Assembly (NCBI GenBank): GCA_028713205.1
Contig: JAQTOZ010000004.1
Coordinates: 1-42,285 of the forward strand
Direction of reading: 5' to 3'
Source: Candidatus Omnitrophota bacterium
Lineage (GTDB): Bacteria; Omnitrophota; Omnitrophia; Omnitrophales; Aquincolibacteriaceae
DNA length: 42,285 bases
The position numbers were made by a program, and so were the translations under genes. The notes beneath the pieces were generated by a model. The model did not search any database. It was not told the origin of the DNA and saw nothing but the letters and a program-made list of their open reading frames with translations. Of this stretch, positions 34,205-42,285 are shown one piece after another. Position 1 is the first letter of the stretch; each line of letters opens with the position of its first letter.

Positions 34205-35272
34205 CTATAGAACATTGACTTTCTTCATCGCCTCTTGAATGCGGCCGAGACCTTCTTCGATTTGTTTGATATCGAGGGCATAACTGAGGCGAATGCGGTC
34301 CGGCGCACCGAACCATTCCCCCAGGTACGTGATGACTTGATAGTCTTGATAGAGAAGACTCAAAAACTTCCTCGCATTTTTACACTTGGGCAGAACGTAA
34401 AAAGCCCCTTCGGGCTTCCAGAGATCGAATCCCAGATTTAGGAGTCCTTCATAAATATAATCCCGCCGCTGGCGCCAAATCTTCTGCTGCCGGTGAATAT
34501 ATTCTTTGGGTGCTTTCATCGCCGACAGCGCCATGTCCTGTCCCACGAGATTTGTGTTCATGGAGGTATGTGTTTTCATTTCACACACCCCTTCGACCAC
34601 CGATTTGTCGCTGCTCCACAAATAGCCGACGCGGACACCGCACATGCAATAAGTCTTGGAAAAGGAATTGACCGTAATCACATGATTACCGTGAATATGG
34701 TAATTTTCGCGTTCATAGATCAGATCTTTGTACACTTCGTCGGAAACCACGTAAACTCCGAGCTTCTGCGTCACCTTTTCGATGGTCTTGAGTGTTTCGA
34801 TCGCTTCAACACGCCCCGTCGGATTGGACGGCGAGTTGATTAAAACCGCTTTGCACTTCCCTATCTTTTTTTTGAAATCCTCGATGTCGATACGGCCGTC
34901 GATAAGATCCGTAAAGACCGGGACCATGCCCGCCATTTGGATAATGGGCAGATAGGAATAATAATAAGGCCGCGGCAGGAGCACCTTTTGGCCTTTTCCC
35001 CACGAGCGGAAAATCAGGTCCAAGGCCTCGGAGGCCCCGTTGGTAATCACGAAATTTTCCGCGGTCGAACCCGGATACTCGTGAGCCAGCTTCTCCCGGA
35101 GCTTGATCTCGCCCTGAATCAACCCGTAGCGGAGGTCCCGGGTCAAATCGACGCCTTCGAACGTTTCTTTGGGGGGCGGAAGGTCCGGCTGCCCGGAGCC
35201 AAAACTGATTACCCCGGGGCCTTGCTTGCCGATAAAATCGGCGGGACTTTTCAATTTAAGAATTTTTGTCAT
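34205..35272 (-). CDS. Pyridoxal-phosphate dependent aminotransferase, class I/II
   Basis: VITNGASEALDLIFRSW, VLINSPSNPTGRVE, YVVSDEVYKDLIYE, TVNSFSKTYCMCGVRVGYLW (PLP Lys). Confidence 0.94.
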   Translation of the reverse strand: MTKILKLKSPADFIGKQGPGVISFGSGQPDLPPPKETFEGVDLTRDLRYGLIQGEIKLREKLAHEYPGSTAENFVITNGASEALDLIFRSWGKGQKVLLPRPYYYSYLPIIQMAGMVPVFTDLIDGRIDIEDFKKKIGKCKAVLINSPSNPTGRVEAIETLKTIEKVTQKLGVYVVSDEVYKDLIYERENYHIHGNHVITVNSFSKTYCMCGVRVGYLWSSDKSVVEGVCEMKTHTSMNTNLVGQDMALSAMKAPKEYIHRQQKIWRQRRDYIYEGLLNLGFDLWKPEGAFYVLPKCKNARKFLSLLYQDYQVITYLGEWFGAPDRIRLSYALDIKQIEEGLGRIQEAMKKVNVL

Positions 35273-35341
35273 TGATAAAACCTTTCCCCTCATCCATTTG
35301 TGGCCATAACATCACCGAAACCGTCATATTCTCGAGGATGC

Positions 35342-35364
35342 CACTCAACCAAAAGGGTTGAGTG
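35342..35364. repeat. Perfect hairpin beside tRNA-like copy A
   Basis: cactcaacc-aaaag-ggttgagtg, 9 bp arms. Confidence 0.8.
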
Positions 35365-35380
35365 CTCGCCCTGCCGGCTC

Positions 35381-35399
35381 GGAGTGGGATACGGGAATC
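35381..35399 (-). repeat. tRNA-Gly 3'-end-like fragment, copy A
   Basis: + reads ggagtgggatacgggaatc; - reads GATTCCCGTATCCCACTCC, resembling a T-arm/acceptor 3' half. Confidence 0.55.
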
Positions 35400-35481
35400 T
35401 TGAATCCGTAACCGCAACTATAGAAGATGTAATGCATTATATTGATTCTTATTAATTTCGCTACGGTTTTCGCTACATGGA

Positions 35482-35610
35482 TTAGAGACCGCTTAATTTC
35501 AGCGCTTCCATGGGCCCCGATTCGGTCGGGTGTGAATAATAATCGTTCATCACCCGTTCGTCCATACATCCCGTAATTTGCATGATGTCTTTCTTCGTAG
35601 CAATGTCATA
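35482..35610 (-). pseudogene. Orphan C-terminal coding remnant, possibly tyrosine recombinase
   Basis: - frame NYLKYDIATKKDIMQITGCMDERVMNDYYSHPTESGPMEALKLSGL*. Loosely resembles the GH...YxH end of tyrosine recombinases, with GC for GH and one extra residue. Confidence 0.3.
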
Positions 35611-35612
35611 TT

Positions 35613-35948
35613 TTAGGTAGTTGGAACTTTGCGCTCATAGACAAGATGATTAACAAGATGGCGGATGGCTGAAAGAGGATGCCGTACAAACATTCTGGGG
35701 CCTGAATACCGCATCACCATTATGATCCTTTGCCGCTGCTCCATCCTATAACAATGGATCGGGCACTTAGCGCAAACAGGCTTGTCCTCCCCGAATACGC
35801 AATTGTCCAACCGCGCATATGCATATCTTAAAAGCTCTGAGCACGGACCGCAGCAATCACGCCCCTCATAATCATGATTGTTTCCCCGGCAATAGATACG
35901 GATCATGTCTCGAAGTGTTTGTTTTTCGCGCAACAATTCGTTTCCCAT
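35613..35948 (-). CDS. YgbA-like 'nitrous oxide-stimulated promoter' family Cys-rich protein
   Basis: MIRIYCRGNNH...CCGPCSELLRYAYARLDNCVFGEDKPVCAKCPIHCYRMEQRQRIIMVMRYSGPRMFVRHPLSAIRHL. Confidence 0.85.
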   Translation of the reverse strand: MGNELLREKQTLRDMIRIYCRGNNHDYEGRDCCGPCSELLRYAYARLDNCVFGEDKPVCAKCPIHCYRMEQRQRIIMVMRYSGPRMFVRHPLSAIRHLVNHLVYERKVPTT

Positions 35949-35965
35949 GGTGATCGTCGAGAATC

Positions 35966-36421
35966 TTAAATCTTTTGAATGGGATATTGCTTCATTCTTT
36001 CAAAGATGTCGGCTCGTTCCGCATCATTGGCCAAATGATCAGTCATCGGATAAAGAATCGTTTCTTCTTTTTGATTATGCGCGCCAAGCACGGTCAGGAG
36101 CGTGGCTTCTTCAATTTCCGTACGCAGGTTCTGTCTTTCGACCTTCTCACGGATCGCACTGAGCGTTTCACGGATCTCTCGATGTTCCATCCTCATCACG
36201 ACCGTCGGTCCTGAATCCCGCATCCCCGTTTTTGCTTCAAAAAGCGGAAAAAGCAATTCTTCTTCCCATACGATATGCCGTTCGAGTCCCCATTGAAATG
36301 TTTTAAACGCATCGACAGCTTGCTTAACAGCCGATAATTTCAAAGTTTGGTAAGTGCGAAACAATCCATCTAAACGGTTATGATCATCTTGGAAATATTT
36401 TGAGATTTGCGGTATTGACAT
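35966..36421 (-). CDS. Hemerythrin HHE-domain protein
   Basis: DDHNRLDGLF, HIVWEEELLFPLFE, MRMEHREIRE, LGAHNQKEETILYPMTD. Start MSIPQISKYF preceded by GGGG. Confidence 0.85.
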   Translation of the reverse strand: MSIPQISKYFQDDHNRLDGLFRTYQTLKLSAVKQAVDAFKTFQWGLERHIVWEEELLFPLFEAKTGMRDSGPTVVMRMEHREIRETLSAIREKVERQNLRTEIEEATLLTVLGAHNQKEETILYPMTDHLANDAERADIFERMKQYPIQKI

Positions 36422-36466
36422 GATCACACCCCTTTTCAATTAAATTTCCATGACTCGCTTTCTTTT

Positions 36467-36898
36467 TTACCTCTTGATTTCGATTTCTTCATAAAACTCT
36501 ACCAACTCCGACAAACACGTTGATTCGAGGTTTAACAACAAACTTTGTTTGGTCTCTTCCCATGTGCTGTGGAGCAAACAAGGCTTTCGACAATTACATT
36601 TCGAGGAACCCAAGATACACGGCTCAAAGGTTTTCTCTCCGTCAACGGCCTTGATGATTTCCAAAATACTGACCTTATCAGGTTTCCTGCAAAGACGATA
36701 ACCGCCGCCATTCCCAGGGACGGCCTCAAGATAACCACCCCGAACAAGCGATTGAAATACCTTTCGTGCAAAAGACTCTGGGATCTTTGTCTTCCGGCAT
36801 ATTGACTGCGCCGTTTTATTAGACCCGTTTTCTACCGCCGCAAGATAAAGAAACGCCCGAATGGCATATTCACAACCCTTCGAGTAAAGGCGAAACAT
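36467..36898 (-). CDS. Rrf2-family transcriptional regulator, NsrR/IscR-like with Cys cluster
   Basis: MFRLYSKGCEYAIRAFLYLAA...IPESFARKVFQSLVRGGYLEAVPGNGGGYRL, then CILGSSKCNCRKPC. Confidence 0.88.
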   Translation of the reverse strand: MFRLYSKGCEYAIRAFLYLAAVENGSNKTAQSICRKTKIPESFARKVFQSLVRGGYLEAVPGNGGGYRLCRKPDKVSILEIIKAVDGEKTFEPCILGSSKCNCRKPCLLHSTWEETKQSLLLNLESTCLSELVEFYEEIEIKR

Positions 36899-36913
36899 AT
36901 ATTTCAATCCTTC

Positions 36914-36974
36914 CATCATGGATTTTAATGTCCATGATGCAATTAATTCTACCCCTATGATTGTTATTTGTAAA
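36914..36974 (-). promoter_or_regulatory. Promoter and operator of the Rrf2 cassette: TTTACA - 17 bp - TAGAAT plus dyad CATCATGGA-N8-TCCATGATG
   Basis: -35 at 36969-36974, -10 at 36946-36951, perfect 9+9 bp inverted repeat at 36914-36939 around the predicted +1. Confidence 0.65.
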
Positions 36975-37027
36975 TGGATACAACTCAGAGGAACCTGATC
37001 CCCCGCGCCTTATGGAGCGCTCACTTA

Positions 37028-37093
37028 GCAGGATTGCTGCAAGTTTTGGCTGGGATTAAAACTGGGGAAAAAGTGATGGAGCGGGATACGGGA
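37028..37093. repeat. 66 bp direct repeat, copy B, ending in the tRNA-Gly-like 3' fragment
   Basis: gcaggattgctgcaagttttggctgggattaaaactggggaaaaagtgatggagcgggatacggga; matches 41890-41955 at 64 of 66 bases. Confidence 0.95.
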
Positions 37094-37465
37094 TCCCGCA
37101 TACCCCATTTTTTAAGTGGAAGAACTGCAATAAGTTACAAACAGACGATCCTTAAATTAAAAAAACCTACCACCTAATTATGTGAACACTATTGAGTTTC
37201 AGCTAAACTCCCCCGCCTGGCCGACTTTCGGAGTTGGTTGGTGACTTCGGGCGAGGTGGAAAGCCTCAAGATTCTGACAAAAGAACTTCCATTGATTATT
37301 TCTTAATTGCTCATATGCCCAGGCTCTACATAGCGGAGTGCTTCACATAATAGATAAAAAGCAACACGGGCCAGGAAAAATCTAGAAGCCCTGTATAGAA
37401 ACATCTGGATTACGGCCGTAATCGTCGGCCACGGTAATAGCATACCACCCGTCGAGACACTTCCC

Positions 37466-38908
37466 CTAAGACAACCTGTCCAGAATCTCGGGCAGCGAAA
37501 CCAACACGAACGTCGTCTGCCGATCGGATAATGCGTACGGGATAATAAGCGTATCCCCATGGATCATGGCGCCGCACGAATAAACGACGTTGGGAACATA
37601 CCCGGAACGGCTTTGAACTTTCCAATGAATAAGCGGTTCGCTCAATCTGCCGAGTACGCGCGAAGGGTCATCGCGATCAAGCAGAGCCGCGCCGATCGAA
37701 TATTGATGCAGCGGGCCAACCCCATGGGTCAAAAGAAGCCACCCGCGATCAGTCTCGATGGGAGAACCGCAATTTCCGATCTGCACAAACTCCCAGGGAT
37801 ACAAAGGCTCCATGATCGGGACGGCTTCACGCCAGAAATGAATATTATCGGAATACATGAGGAAAAGCCGCTCATTGTCGTTCCGGGAGATCATCGCGTA
37901 ACGGCCGTTTATCCTGCGCGGGAACAAAGCCATCCCTTTGTTGACCGCCGCTCTGCCGTTCAAGGTAATCATTTTAAAATGAATGAAATCCTCTGTCTCC
38001 ATGATCTGCGGGAGTATGACCTTTCCGTCATACGCCGTATAGGTAGCATAGTATTTTCCGCTTCCGTCATCGCCCTTAAAGAAAACGAAACGCGCATCCT
38101 CCATGCCGTTCTGCTCACTGGGCGACATCGGAAACAGAACACGCTCTGAAAGCACAAACCGCGGATCGAAAGTGGCTTCGTAATTACATCGCGCGAGCCA
38201 TAGGATCTTTTCACAGGTAAGCCTGTCGGTTTGAGTTATCGGATGATGATCGAGAGTATAAGTATTGACCTTATCCTGCAGCTGCGCCATGGTAAACTCG
38301 GCCGGTAAAGGATCTATCAAATGTTTTGAGCAGTCATTCGCCAGACCCATTTCATAGAGTTTTCCCATGAAACATACCTTATCATACCGAGCGTTGGGTT
38401 TTGGTTCTGAGGTACAAGCGAAACTGGAAGCCTTATCGATCGATAGAAAACCCCGGTGATCAATGATCCCCGAACGGAATACCAAGGCGGATATGTGCCC
38501 TTCACTCGTCGCGCGTAAAGAAATAATGACACGTAATGAACCGCGGGGTATTCCGCACTGATCGGGATGCGCAACAATGGAGGGATTGAAGAGCGCCGTT
38601 GATTCATACGAACGTTCACCGATAAAATACGCTCCGATGAGGAGCCTGTGCGCTTTGGATGGCTGGAAATCGGAAGGCATACATGCGCGGATGGCTTCAA
38701 ATTGGCGTTCAAGGCTGACATCAAAATCATGGTGCCGTGTCGAAAAATCGCCCATCACTTTCTTTAGCTCTTCTTCGGCGGCGGATTCGTCAAGCTCCAT
38801 AACGCGCGCAATGATCCGCGGAACGCGTGATTGATCGGCGGGGATACACGGCCGGATGATGACACGCTCACGATCAGGGGTGATGACTATACCGGTATCT
38901 TTTATCAT
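37466..38908 (-). CDS. Glycoside hydrolase family 130-like (beta-mannoside phosphorylase type)
   Basis: NGMEDARFVFFKGDDGSGKYYATYTAYDG, NCGSPIETDRGWLLLTHGVGPLHQYSIGAALLDRDDPSRVLGR. Confidence 0.8.
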   Translation of the reverse strand: MIKDTGIVITPDRERVIIRPCIPADQSRVPRIIARVMELDESAAEEELKKVMGDFSTRHHDFDVSLERQFEAIRACMPSDFQPSKAHRLLIGAYFIGERSYESTALFNPSIVAHPDQCGIPRGSLRVIISLRATSEGHISALVFRSGIIDHRGFLSIDKASSFACTSEPKPNARYDKVCFMGKLYEMGLANDCSKHLIDPLPAEFTMAQLQDKVNTYTLDHHPITQTDRLTCEKILWLARCNYEATFDPRFVLSERVLFPMSPSEQNGMEDARFVFFKGDDGSGKYYATYTAYDGKVILPQIMETEDFIHFKMITLNGRAAVNKGMALFPRRINGRYAMISRNDNERLFLMYSDNIHFWREAVPIMEPLYPWEFVQIGNCGSPIETDRGWLLLTHGVGPLHQYSIGAALLDRDDPSRVLGRLSEPLIHWKVQSRSGYVPNVVYSCGAMIHGDTLIIPYALSDRQTTFVLVSLPEILDRLS

Positions 38909-41184
38909 TCCTCCAATGGCTCCTTCAGGCTTTCGAGAATATTTTCCATCTGCGTCATTTCGGTCAGAGACAGAAGAAATGAAAGAGTCGATTCAGCACC
39001 TTGATTAAGATTTACCCGGTTAATATGCAGCCCGTCACAGCATCCACCCGTCACCGGGCTATATAGGGGAATGCCTAGATCATTGCGTCCGAGGAACCAC
39101 TGAAAAGCATTTAGGGCCTTCTCATACCACGTCCTGTCTTTTGTGATGCGATAGGCTTCGAGGCATGCTGAAACGGTGGCATAGGCTTCTATCGGTTGCT
39201 GGTCAAAGATAGGTTTGACCCCGCCGCGACGATATTCGCCATCTGAGCCTACCGGCTGAAACTGACCGCGAGTCGAAGTCTGTATCTTTACGAGCCAGCT
39301 TAGAGCCTCGATTCCCGTTTTCAGCATTTCTTCATTGCCCAGATCGTGTCCACTTAAAAAAAGAGCGTGGGGCAATTTGGCGTCGCAATATGTCAAAGAT
39401 GACTCAAACCATCGCCATTCAGCGTCGCTATTTGCTTTGTAAAGATCGTGAAGCCGCGCAACAAGTGTTTGCATACAGTTACGGGCGAGTCTGTCTCCGT
39501 GGAAGCGCTGCAAATATTCATGTATCCCGAGCAATATAAAAGCCCATGCGCGCGGCGAAGTAAATGATGCCGAGGAAGCAAGAGCTTTCTCAAAAAGCTC
39601 AACCAACATTTGCACATATCCTTCGTTTTTAGACCGCCCTATGCAAGTGCCGATAGCCCACAGCGCCCTTCCGTGGCAGTCTTCGCTGGGCATCTCTTTT
39701 TTCCAATTTCGCTGGAAAGTCAGAAAATTTCTGAATCGGCCGATTGAAGGATCCCACGCGTAGTTAATAAACCCAAGGTAGCAACTCGCGAGATCATTGA
39801 TCTTAAGAGGATTAATGATGCCGAGGTTTTCAAGCAGTACGGCGAGAATAAGTGCTCGCGCATTGTCGTCTGTGCAATAACCTTCGGAAAAGTTGGGGAC
39901 ATTGAATGTGGCATGCTGAAAGACCCCGATGGAATCGGTCATCCTAACGAGATGATCCAGCTTGATGTCGGGCAATACGTGAATCTGTTGTTCAAGAGGG
40001 TACATTTTTATCTTCATTTTCGACGGGGGATATCTCCTAATCCTGGATTCTTCAAAGATCGACGCATATTTAAACAACACATTGGGCCAGGTCATTTCGC
40101 GGCCCAAAAGATAGGCATTCTTGCGCATCGCGTTACGTTCACTTTCGTTACCGATAAGCCTCATAATCGCCTCTCCCATCGCGTTCGAATCGTTGAACGG
40201 CACAATAATACCCTTACCGTCGCTCAGCAGTTCGGCGGCATGCCAGTAGGGGGTCGAGATAACCGCATTTCCTGCACCGAACGAATAGGAAAGCGTCCCG
40301 GAAACGACCTGCGCTTCCTCATGGTATGGAGTAATGTAGATATCAGCGAGTACGAGCAGCTCTTTGAGTTCTTCAGGAGATACAAATCGGTCATGAAAAA
40401 TAACATTCCCCGAAATTTTAAGATCATCGCAAAGGCGTTGTAAAAAAATTCTGTATGCTTCGCCCTCATGCCTTAACAGGTGGGGATGCGTAGCTCCGAC
40501 GATGATGTATACCACATTCGGATATTCTTTGATGACTTGAGGAAGCGTGCGCAGGACAATCTCGATTCCCTTATGCGGTGCGAGTAATCCGAACGTCAGG
40601 AGCGCAGTCTTGCCTTCGACCCCATATTGGTCTTTGTAAAAATTGGGATCGATAAAAGGAACGTCGGGTATCCCGTGCGGGATCAATTGTATCTTAGATC
40701 CGTGTATCTTATTTACCTCCTGAAGTATGTCGACGGCTTTTTGAGTCATTACAACCACATACTCGGATAGGGCGATCAGTTCATCCATAACACGTCTTTG
40801 GCGCGCCGATGGATTTTGCAGTACCGTATGCAAGGTAGTTACGATGGGCATCTTCAATTGACGCAATAACGCCAATATATAACCGCCTGCGTCGCCTCCA
40901 AAAATACCGAATTCGTGCTGAACGCAGACAACATCTATATCGTTCAGGTTGAGGAAATCCGCTGCCGCTTTGTACGAGGCTATGTCCTGCTCCTTGATCT
41001 CGAGACGTACCCGCTCAGGGTAACTGTAGCCTTCTTCGATGTCTGTAACAGGTATCGCGAATACTTGAACGGACGGGTTTTGAGCTGCAAATGTCTCGCA
41101 GAGGTCCGTGGTAAATGTCGCGATACCACAATGCCTCGGAAGATAATTGCCGATAAAAGCTATCTTCTTGATATTATTGGCCAT
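38905..41184 (-). CDS. Fusion: GT4-type glycosyltransferase plus C-terminal alpha/alpha-toroid-like domain
   Basis: N-terminal GT-B: AFIGNYLPRHCGIATFTTDL, VVCVQHEFGIFGG, LLTFGLLAPHKGIEIVL, EAQVVSGTLSYSFGAGNAVISTPYWHAAELLSDGKGIIVPF. Helical C-terminal half FSEGYCTDDNARALILAVLLENLG...GRALWAIG. Confidence 0.82.
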   Translation of the reverse strand: MANNIKKIAFIGNYLPRHCGIATFTTDLCETFAAQNPSVQVFAIPVTDIEEGYSYPERVRLEIKEQDIASYKAAADFLNLNDIDVVCVQHEFGIFGGDAGGYILALLRQLKMPIVTTLHTVLQNPSARQRRVMDELIALSEYVVVMTQKAVDILQEVNKIHGSKIQLIPHGIPDVPFIDPNFYKDQYGVEGKTALLTFGLLAPHKGIEIVLRTLPQVIKEYPNVVYIIVGATHPHLLRHEGEAYRIFLQRLCDDLKISGNVIFHDRFVSPEELKELLVLADIYITPYHEEAQVVSGTLSYSFGAGNAVISTPYWHAAELLSDGKGIIVPFNDSNAMGEAIMRLIGNESERNAMRKNAYLLGREMTWPNVLFKYASIFEESRIRRYPPSKMKIKMYPLEQQIHVLPDIKLDHLVRMTDSIGVFQHATFNVPNFSEGYCTDDNARALILAVLLENLGIINPLKINDLASCYLGFINYAWDPSIGRFRNFLTFQRNWKKEMPSEDCHGRALWAIGTCIGRSKNEGYVQMLVELFEKALASSASFTSPRAWAFILLGIHEYLQRFHGDRLARNCMQTLVARLHDLYKANSDAEWRWFESSLTYCDAKLPHALFLSGHDLGNEEMLKTGIEALSWLVKIQTSTRGQFQPVGSDGEYRRGGVKPIFDQQPIEAYATVSACLEAYRITKDRTWYEKALNAFQWFLGRNDLGIPLYSPVTGGCCDGLHINRVNLNQGAESTLSFLLSLTEMTQMENILESLKEPLEE

Positions 41185-41199
41185 AATTTTTATTTTTGA

Positions 41200-41478
41200 C
41201 TATTTCCGTTTCCTTTCTATATCTCGTTCGTGACATGTTCCTATCTGTACCTCGATTAACTTTAATCCCTTGTTGCTTGTGTTGCGCAATTGGTGCCATT
41301 GTCGATTATGCACTATCTTTACTTTGCGGCTATCAAGGAATACCCACGTTTCGCTTCTGTGTCGATGCCTTTGCAAACTTGTTTTCTCGAATGGCTTGAG
41401 ATATAAGAGTTTAACCTTAAATCCGTTTCCTTTTACAAGAACGATATACCATCCCCACGCCTTAAGAACTTTTTTCAT
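41200..41478 (-). CDS. Minimal cupin resembling the C-terminal domain of mannose-6-phosphate isomerase / mannose-1-P guanylyltransferase
   Basis: KAWGWYIVLVKGNGFKVKLLYLKPFEKTSLQRHRHRSETWVFLD...NRQWHQLRNTSNKGLKLIEVQIG. Confidence 0.7.
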   Translation of the reverse strand: MKKVLKAWGWYIVLVKGNGFKVKLLYLKPFEKTSLQRHRHRSETWVFLDSRKVKIVHNRQWHQLRNTSNKGLKLIEVQIGTCHERDIERKRK

Positions 41479-41889
41479 TTATTACCCAAGTACTCAGCGT
41501 TTTGTTCTATGATAAGCTAGTGGCCAATCATAGTTTGCATGTCCATTTTAAAACTGATTATATCAAGGAAGAGCGAAATACTGAAGAAGTAATCAGGGAA
41601 ACCTCGTCGATCATTACCCACTTAGTAAAATCCTTGAGGATCATCCAGTCGGAATAAACGAATACTCGGATAAATACCCTGGAAATAACTGCAGTACGAA
41701 ATAAGTACATGCCTGAAATTGATGAGCGAGATAGGCCGGGTATGACCTCATAACCCGTAATCAGACAAAAGGACATTCGTGAATTTTCGCTACGTAAACC
41801 GAGTCTGAAACCCAATTCCTGGACTGGGGTTGGCTTGGACCAGCTTGAACAACCTCGTATTGTAACAGGAAGATTATAAAGAGATTGCG

Positions 41890-41955
41890 GCAGGATTGCT
41901 GCAAGTTTTGGCTGGGATTAAAACTGGGGAAAAAGAGATGGAGCGGTATACGGGA
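41890..41955. repeat. 66 bp direct repeat, copy C, ending in the tRNA-Gly-like 3' fragment
   Basis: gcaggattgctgcaagttttggctgggattaaaactggggaaaaagagatggagcggtatacggga. Confidence 0.95.
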
Positions 41956-41968
41956 ATCGGCGTCTCCG

Positions 41969-42006
41969 CACCGATAAGCGAATCTTTCTCAAGATTCATC
42001 GGTGCT
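41969..42006. repeat. Long hairpin (8 + 7 bp arms with 4 nt bulge)
   Basis: gcaccgat-aagc-gaatctt-tctc-aagattc-atcggtgc. Confidence 0.85.
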
Positions 42007-42148
42007 CCGGTCGGCCATCCGCCGGCTCGAATGCGTTCAGTGCTCCCAGGAGGTCGCACCTCTATTGAAAGGGCTCGCCGGCTCCTATTCGATTCCCGTG
42101 TCGAACGCCGTAGACGGCTTTCCTTGTGATTTAATTCTGTTTGCTTCC

Positions 42149-42175
42149 CGCACCGAATCCGTTCGATTCGGTGCG
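42149..42175. repeat. Perfect 11 bp hairpin
   Basis: cgcaccgaatc-cgttc-gattcggtgcg. Confidence 0.85.
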
Positions 42176-42209
42176 CTCCAATCACACCGCGCGTTCCGCG
42201 TTGTGTATT

Positions 42210-42228
42210 GGAGCGGGATACGGGAACC
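42210..42228 (-). repeat. tRNA-Gly 3'-end-like fragment, copy D
   Basis: + reads ggagcgggatacgggaacc. Confidence 0.55.
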
Positions 42229-42285
42229 TCAACTGAATTTATTATAATCGCAGATGGCTTATAATGTTATGAAAATTTGCGGAAT

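Follow-up and report, generated by a model that had tools for sequence, protein, structure and literature searches.

The terminal region of the window (42,285 nucleotides, the whole of contig C90, JAQTOZ010000004.1, in the 3.15-Mb, 295-contig genome of Candidatus Omnitrophota bacterium, GCA_028713205.1) is probably the outer portion of a series of insertions that accumulated one after another at the resident tRNA-Gly(CCC) gene, composed of two gene islands and one mini-element that entered at the T-loop. Its inserts are bounded by four fragments of the 3′ end of that tRNA, A to D (Table 1), and are named here after their boundaries (B-A, C-B and D-C). The D-C interval is the most informative part of the region. 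As had been noted earlier, this DNA is hairpin-rich and holds no credible gene; although set aside at that point, it was shown to belong to a conserved family of structured units.

Fragments of tRNA-Gly(CCC), their flanks and the gene inserts

The original prediction had claimed four same-orientation copies of a short sequence resembling the 3′ end of a tRNA-Gly. Exact matches to the 16-mer GGAGYGGKATACGGGA were indeed located at 35381-35396, 37078-37093, 41940-41955 and 42210-42225, the + strand being used in every case, and a whole-genome search for exact copies yielded a single further site, C72:411-426. Since this fifth copy lies inside the resident tRNA-Gly(CCC) gene (C72:410-483, - strand), the tRNA-Gly guess was correct, the copies matching the 3′ end of that very gene. 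Chance or genome-wide dispersal of the 16-mer was ruled out by the five-site count and by shuffled controls, in which up to three mismatches were allowed, the mean was 0.76 matches and none of the 100 shuffles reached four. On the - strand, every fragment reads as the last 17-21 nt or so of the tRNA, spanning the T-loop to CCA (A, GATTCCCGTATCCCaCTCC; B, TCCCGTATCCCGCTCCA; C, CGATTCCCGTATaCCGCTCCA; D, TTCCCGTATCCCGCTCCA; lower case, mismatch). Displaced fragments of a resident tRNA were thus found in one orientation with the tRNA itself intact, C90 presumably adjoining C72 across an assembly gap. In agreement with what had been claimed, neither a complete tRNA nor an intact integrase was found within the window: the three PF00589 recombinases of the genome are located on C139, C47 and C13, and in the assembled DNA outside the gap neither C90 nor the surroundings of the C72 tRNA gave a PF00589 match.

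The likeness of the boundaries extended beyond the 16-mer, and neither the B-C identity nor the likeness of the C flank to the 3′ side of the tRNA had figured in the original prediction. The ~290 bp directly 3′ of the resident tRNA (C72:144-430) showed 77% identity to positions 41669-41959 of the window (E 2.8e-56), and the 66 bp ending in B showed 83% identity to the DNA 3′ of the tRNA, whereas B and C were 97% identical over 66 bp including the core, each being less close to the resident locus. The C72 flank carries a direct repeat, CGCTAC..CGCTAC, starting 162 bp from the core, and C retains one of its two copies. At the equivalent place, 161 bp behind tRNA-Gly(CCC), TGCAAC or TGCTAC repeats were found in four other genera; other family members are without these repeats behind tRNA-Gly(CCC). 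The arm-like motif is also present on the other side of A, as expected of a second arm, and TTTCGCTAC occurs only three times within the window, every time beside fragments. The repeats thus stand on both sides of the core at a constant spacing and, because both copies change jointly at that fixed spacing, as expected of recombinase arm sites, they are regarded as candidate arm sites on sequence grounds.

A likely functioning counterpart, and a candidate for an active element with arm repeats, was identified in the relative G021 (locus L183, G021:C18), in which TGCTACCAATTCTGCTAC comes after a tyrosine integrase and before the 3′ end of a tmRNA gene. No integrase of this type was found in the present genome assembly. 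The arm-plus-core pattern had no match in viral contigs, and in GTDB contigs it matched three Omnitrophota records only, all among the relatives already compared (Candidatus Omnitrophica relatives including UBA2337, AM-2014-D6 bin-627 and RIFOXYB12_FULL_50_7). An ORF beside the arm repeat in the relative at L146 looked radical-SAM-like by inspection and was rejected as an integrase.

The gene content of the two larger intervals, Rrf2/hemerythrin/YgbA in B-A and cupin/GT4/GH130 in C-B, was as described previously. YgbA was found in 3 of 58 genomes, its own included. The GT4 protein exhibited 79% identity to a protein of G053, which is related at the phylum level only, versus at most 41% to the full-length matches in family members; likewise, the GH130-GT4 pair was 78.6% identical in DNA to that of G053 (L223, G053:C43, 6306-10042), the flanks not being shared. 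The patchy distribution, together with the likeness of GT4 and GH130 to a phylum-level relative, therefore indicated that both gene modules are accessory. The G053 pair has no tRNA nearby. Since they carry integrase-style arm repeats near their cores and no integrase of their own, B-A and C-B look like islands placed by a presumed tyrosine integrase that would have been supplied from elsewhere. An empty-site test through the neighboring aminotransferase and hemH genes showed that synteny is not retained in the relatives, among which was no genome of the same genus. The aminotransferase left of A (34205-35293), 82-87% identical in ~24 relatives and there far above hemH, has a second copy in its own genome (C2) and may itself have been recently transferred. 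Elsewhere in the genome, L125 (G000:C13, 3689-6792) comprises a 190-aa tyrosine recombinase and tRNA-Glu(TTC) close together, as well as an apparent serine recombinase of 529 aa by inspection, and is probably another island.

Table 1. Features of the tRNA-Gly(CCC)-derived region, in window coordinates
Feature	Position	Strand	Basis
Fragment A, tRNA-Gly(CCC) 3′ end, one mismatch in the tRNA-derived part; putatively oldest, chromosome-side boundary	35381..35399	-	
Paired arm-like repeat TTTCGCTACGGTTTTCGCTAC in insert B-A, adjoining A	35456..35476	.	sequence repeat
YgbA-like gene (PF11756), cargo of insert B-A	35613..35948	-	
Hemerythrin-domain gene (PF01814), cargo of insert B-A	35966..36439	-	
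Rrf2 regulator (PF02082), cargo of insert B-A	36467..36919	-	
Flank of B, common to C and to the 3′ side of the resident tRNA	37028..37076	-	
Fragment B, tRNA-Gly(CCC) 3′ end	37077..37093	-	
GH130 gene (PF04041), cargo of insert C-B	37466..38908	-	
GT4-type glycosyltransferase gene, cargo of insert C-B	38905..41184	-	
Small cupin gene (PF01050), cargo of insert C-B	41200..41478	-	
Flank of C, homologous to the sequence following the resident tRNA on its 3′ side; includes the arm-like motif TTTCGCTAC (41785-41793)	41669..41938	-	
Fragment C, tRNA-Gly(CCC) 3′ end, one mismatch in the tRNA-derived part; far end of the mini-element	41939..41959	-	
Structured core of the mini-element (predicted three-way junction; antiT arm and part of fragment C)	41947..42100	-	model R1
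antiT arm CACGGGAATCGAA, matching the reverse-complemented tRNA-Gly T-arm with one mismatch in 13	42088..42100	-	
Fragment D, tRNA-Gly(CCC) 3′ end; near end of the mini-element	42209..42226	-	

The mini-element and its family in Omnitrophota

Read from D to C on the - strand, 254 bp of the D-C interval folded far better than shuffled sequences (z -5.5). A stretch of it showed 74% identity across 100 bp with the segment immediately following tRNA-Arg(TCG) of the same genome, and this segment terminates in a perfect duplicate of the 3′ end of tRNA-Arg. The covariance model R1, made from 15 units, none of them from the window, gave a single match in the window (42100-41947, - strand, 36.4 bits, E 8.6e-8); it also recognized the units at the genome's own tRNA-Arg(TCG), at tRNA-Val of G005 and at tRNA-Thr of G009, and gave a weaker match at the own tRNA-Arg(ACG). 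Separately, the hairpin CACCGAATCCGTTCGATTCGGTG in the spacer of the window unit (about 42150-42180) recurs behind two own tRNA-Ser genes and on C103 (contigs C186, C103 and C109).

Units of this family follow a tRNA gene at a distance of ~100-340 bp; their right end reads GGCCGACC..GGAGG(G)CGC, and directly after it comes a copy of the last ~19 nt of the tRNA. A search pattern taken from this common right end, GGCCGACCSN{8,38}GGAGN{1,2}CGCC, gave 58 matches in 237 Omnitrophota genomes, many of them near-identical, versus about 25 for the reversed control. In 19 of the 31 matches whose loci were fetched, the match lay ~100-340 nt behind a tRNA gene with a tRNA tail immediately after it, and in 14 of these the tail reproduces 14-21 nt of the tRNA exactly; the other 12 comprised L253 at a contig edge, the undecided L238 and ten chance-like matches. 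A second batch of 20 regions yielded 14 matches with an upstream tRNA, 10 of which had a 3′ copy with at most two mismatches in 19 nt. This batch included three regions picked as likely chance, none of which had a tRNA. With model R1, unit-like matches at the pattern loci scored at least 26.8 bits, and below these were only L238 (15.8 bits, no tRNA found) and L254 (15.2 bits). Pattern matches without a nearby tRNA were rejected as chance (L226, L227, L230, L235-L237, L240, L252, L254, L255 and L274-L276), L254 being the only one of these below E 0.1 with the model.

The host tRNAs represent 11 amino-acid classes (Ala, Arg, Gln, Gly, Leu, Lys, Pro, Ser, Thr, Tyr and Val) and span at least six Omnitrophota families; at L257, in another family, the host is tRNA-Gly(CCC), as in the window. 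Of the 33 tRNAs tested in the present genome, five are followed within 450 nt downstream by a second occurrence of their 3′ 19-mer (at most one mismatch), compared with none on the opposite strand and none upstream; with internal 19-mers the same test gave one case, the long copy at tRNA-Leu(CAA). Matches of a tRNA tail behind another tRNA coincided with a real tRNA or with another tRNA's copy. At tRNA-Leu(CAA) (L041, G000:C207, 1500-1585, - strand), a segment of ~60 nt of the 3′ half, starting at the anticodon, recurs downstream, and a small ORF, GIY-YIG nuclease-like by inspection, lies between the gene and the copy. Four other tRNAs of the genome, His(GTG) at L029, Arg(CCT) at L034, Leu(TAG) at L016 and Lys(TTT) at L030, have copies of their own 3′ ends 114-320 nt downstream, without a core detected by the model and, for Lys, with 4 mismatches; these could be either diverged units or other inserts.

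The right-end pattern had no match in viral contigs, and a search of Rfam revealed no family covering the unit; an sX4 hit at L244 was discarded, being below its gathering score and overlapping tRNA-Ser. No description of the Omnitrophota units was found in the open-access literature, and the family is thus apparently undescribed.

In the sense of the tRNA, the unit layout is as follows: tRNA, hairpin spacer, antiT, GGGAG, P2 hairpin, GGGTGGCCGACC(C)GNAGCGAAGCGGAGG(G)CGC and the copied tRNA tail. The antiT arm is the reverse complement of the host T-arm, as exemplified by GAGAGGACTTGAA at tRNA-Leu(GAG). Against their own hosts the arms showed 57 mismatches in all, versus 92.9 ± 5.5 for permuted hosts (n 21, P 5e-5), and with one unit per isoacceptor 38 versus 67.4 ± 4.7 (P 5e-5). 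Pairing between antiT and the copied tail is predicted to close a three-way junction. RNAalifold analysis of 15 units gave 22 pairs, 8 of them with two-sided changes, and a covariation score of 0.341, versus 0.185 ± 0.016 for shuffled and at most 0.138 for slid alignments. P2, in which no tRNA sequence is involved, was 95% paired with four two-sided pairs; the invariance of P3 is partly by construction since the collecting pattern fixes part of it, P1 and P2 being unaffected.

Comparison with rtT, tRNA islands and REP/BIME repeats

In kind, the finding is a variant of two known phenomena, namely tRNA-bounded insertions and repeats of the rtT plan. In E. coli K-12, exact copies of the terminal 19 nt of tRNA-Tyr lie behind tyrV, at +159, +337 and +515; these are the known rtT/tpr repeats, and the tyrT-tyrV spacer has an equal layout. 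These rtT repeats (RttR, RtT RNA, RF00391) are 178-bp units, each ending in an exact 19-nt tRNA-Tyr tail, and their predicted fold is closed by a stem that joins GGGGAAGGAT to its reverse complement within the copied tail, ATCCTTCCCC. The Omnitrophota units likewise stand behind a tRNA and end in a copy of its 3′ end, but differ in their GGCCGACC..GGAGG(G)CGC end and in their many tRNA isotypes. The Rfam RtT model gave no match at E 5 in positions 35000-42285 of the window and none at E 1 or E 2 on the Omnitrophota units, nor did model R1 score significantly on E. coli tyrT. Since neither model links the two groups by sequence, the kinship is read from anatomy and appears to be one of plan rather than of proven descent.

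With tyrosine-integrase islands of the Islander type, the region shares displaced 3′ fragments in one orientation, accessory cargo, paired arm-like repeats and an identity starting at the T-loop, as in the attB of phage Ms6; a crossover at the T-loop is established for such tRNA-integrating phages (PMC1762012). Unlike these islands, the window is without an integrase and its inserts are small, 1.7 kb for B-A and 0.27 kb (270 bp) for D-C. The filters of Islander discard candidates that lack an integrase or are below 2 kb, and three insert intervals in a row, as found here, are rare, only four arrays of three or more islands being listed in 2168 genomes (PMC4383910). REP/BIME palindromic repeats are similarly short, non-coding, strongly folding and repeated, and one group of BIME-associated elements described in the literature is similar to rtT (PMC2965389). 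In contrast to these, the Omnitrophota units occupy a fixed place behind tRNA genes, with a host-tRNA boundary and a host-fitted arm.

Probable serial insertion and its alternatives

Of the two models originally put forward, serial insertion was favored: the resident tRNA was found, exact fragments were confined to this locus and the tRNA and all point in one direction, the flanks are common to the 3′ side of the tRNA, and the cargo is patchy in relatives. Each insertion would enter at the T-loop and supply its own copy of the tRNA 3′ end, the tRNA remaining whole and the old 3′ end being displaced outward as a fragment. The fragments would then descend in age from A through B and C to D, each new insert adjoining the tRNA, and one further insert probably lies between D and tRNA-Gly(CCC). 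Situated between the arm-bearing end of insert C-B and the DNA beyond D, the mini-element would have entered the tRNA after island C-B and before the last insertion, assuming that C90 leads to C72. By analogy with rtT, D-C is most likely a very small element that inserts into the T-loop, restores the tRNA and is transcribed with it; the order of events, the mobility and the transcription are what we infer. On the side against the stack, the contig holds no integrase or complete tRNA, synteny is lost in relatives, and, as A and B are without the right end of the mini-element, two mechanisms must be assumed.

The other original model, a cassette array on one recombination site, was not supported. 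An integron-like array with a tRNA-derived unit boundary would account for the recurrence of same-orientation boundaries with differing content and for the 97% identity over 66 bp between B and C. Its intervals, however, differ in build, two being gene islands with integrase-style arm repeats and one a structured non-coding unit; the exact site occurs elsewhere only in the tRNA, no integrase is linked, and no integron-type integrase was recognized by inspection among the three PF00589 proteins of the genome, two of which look Xer-like. Such an array is very improbable. That only ordinary tandem tRNA islands are present, with C-D as meaningless decayed island DNA, agrees with the island-like behavior of A-B and B-C and with fragments marking ends as in Islander (PMC4383910). 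This is nonetheless highly unlikely given that C-D is recognized by a model from other genomes, folds far better than shuffles and carries a host-matched antiT, as well as the model scores at the pattern loci.

A non-mobile origin deserves more weight, although it is still rather unlikely: the mini-element would be an RNA, either regulatory or a by-product, that is transcribed together with the tRNA in the manner of rtT at tyrT, and would have multiplied by local tandem duplication of the tRNA 3′ end and spacer, with the genes of C-B and B-A entering the array later. Tandem units do occur at several tRNAs, the post-tRNA spacer being repeated after the fragment, the fold covaries, and rtT is a real RNA product (PMC4986893). 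On the other hand, units of a single kind have host tRNAs for 11 amino acids across several bacterial families, different tRNAs within one genome carry homologous units, and some antiT arms suit another tRNA better than their host (the Ser unit on C103 and the Lys unit in L243). The last two observations suggest, at the sequence level, movement of units between isotypes. Hairpin-templated correction is known for quasi-palindromes, and refitting of antiT could come from such correction.

Returning to a mobile mini-element, the units stand a fair chance of forming a separate class. We tentatively propose, at somewhat less than even confidence, a new class of tiny mobile elements that would enter nearly any tRNA gene at its T-loop and rebuild the gene with their own 3′-end copy, bearing a guide-like arm complementary to the target T-arm and refitted for each tRNA, of which E. 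coli rtT would be a relict member. Searches that demand an integrase and more than 2 kb miss this entire kind of tRNA-bounded insertion. Given dozens of copies spread over many tRNA hosts, together with covariation in the fold and a host-fitted arm, what had been an oddity of an E. coli operon, repeats ending in the last 19 bases of a tRNA, becomes a family that can be studied comparatively, and the many comparable copies make its origin and function testable: regulatory RNA versus mobile element, the refitting of the arm and a role in tRNA maturation.
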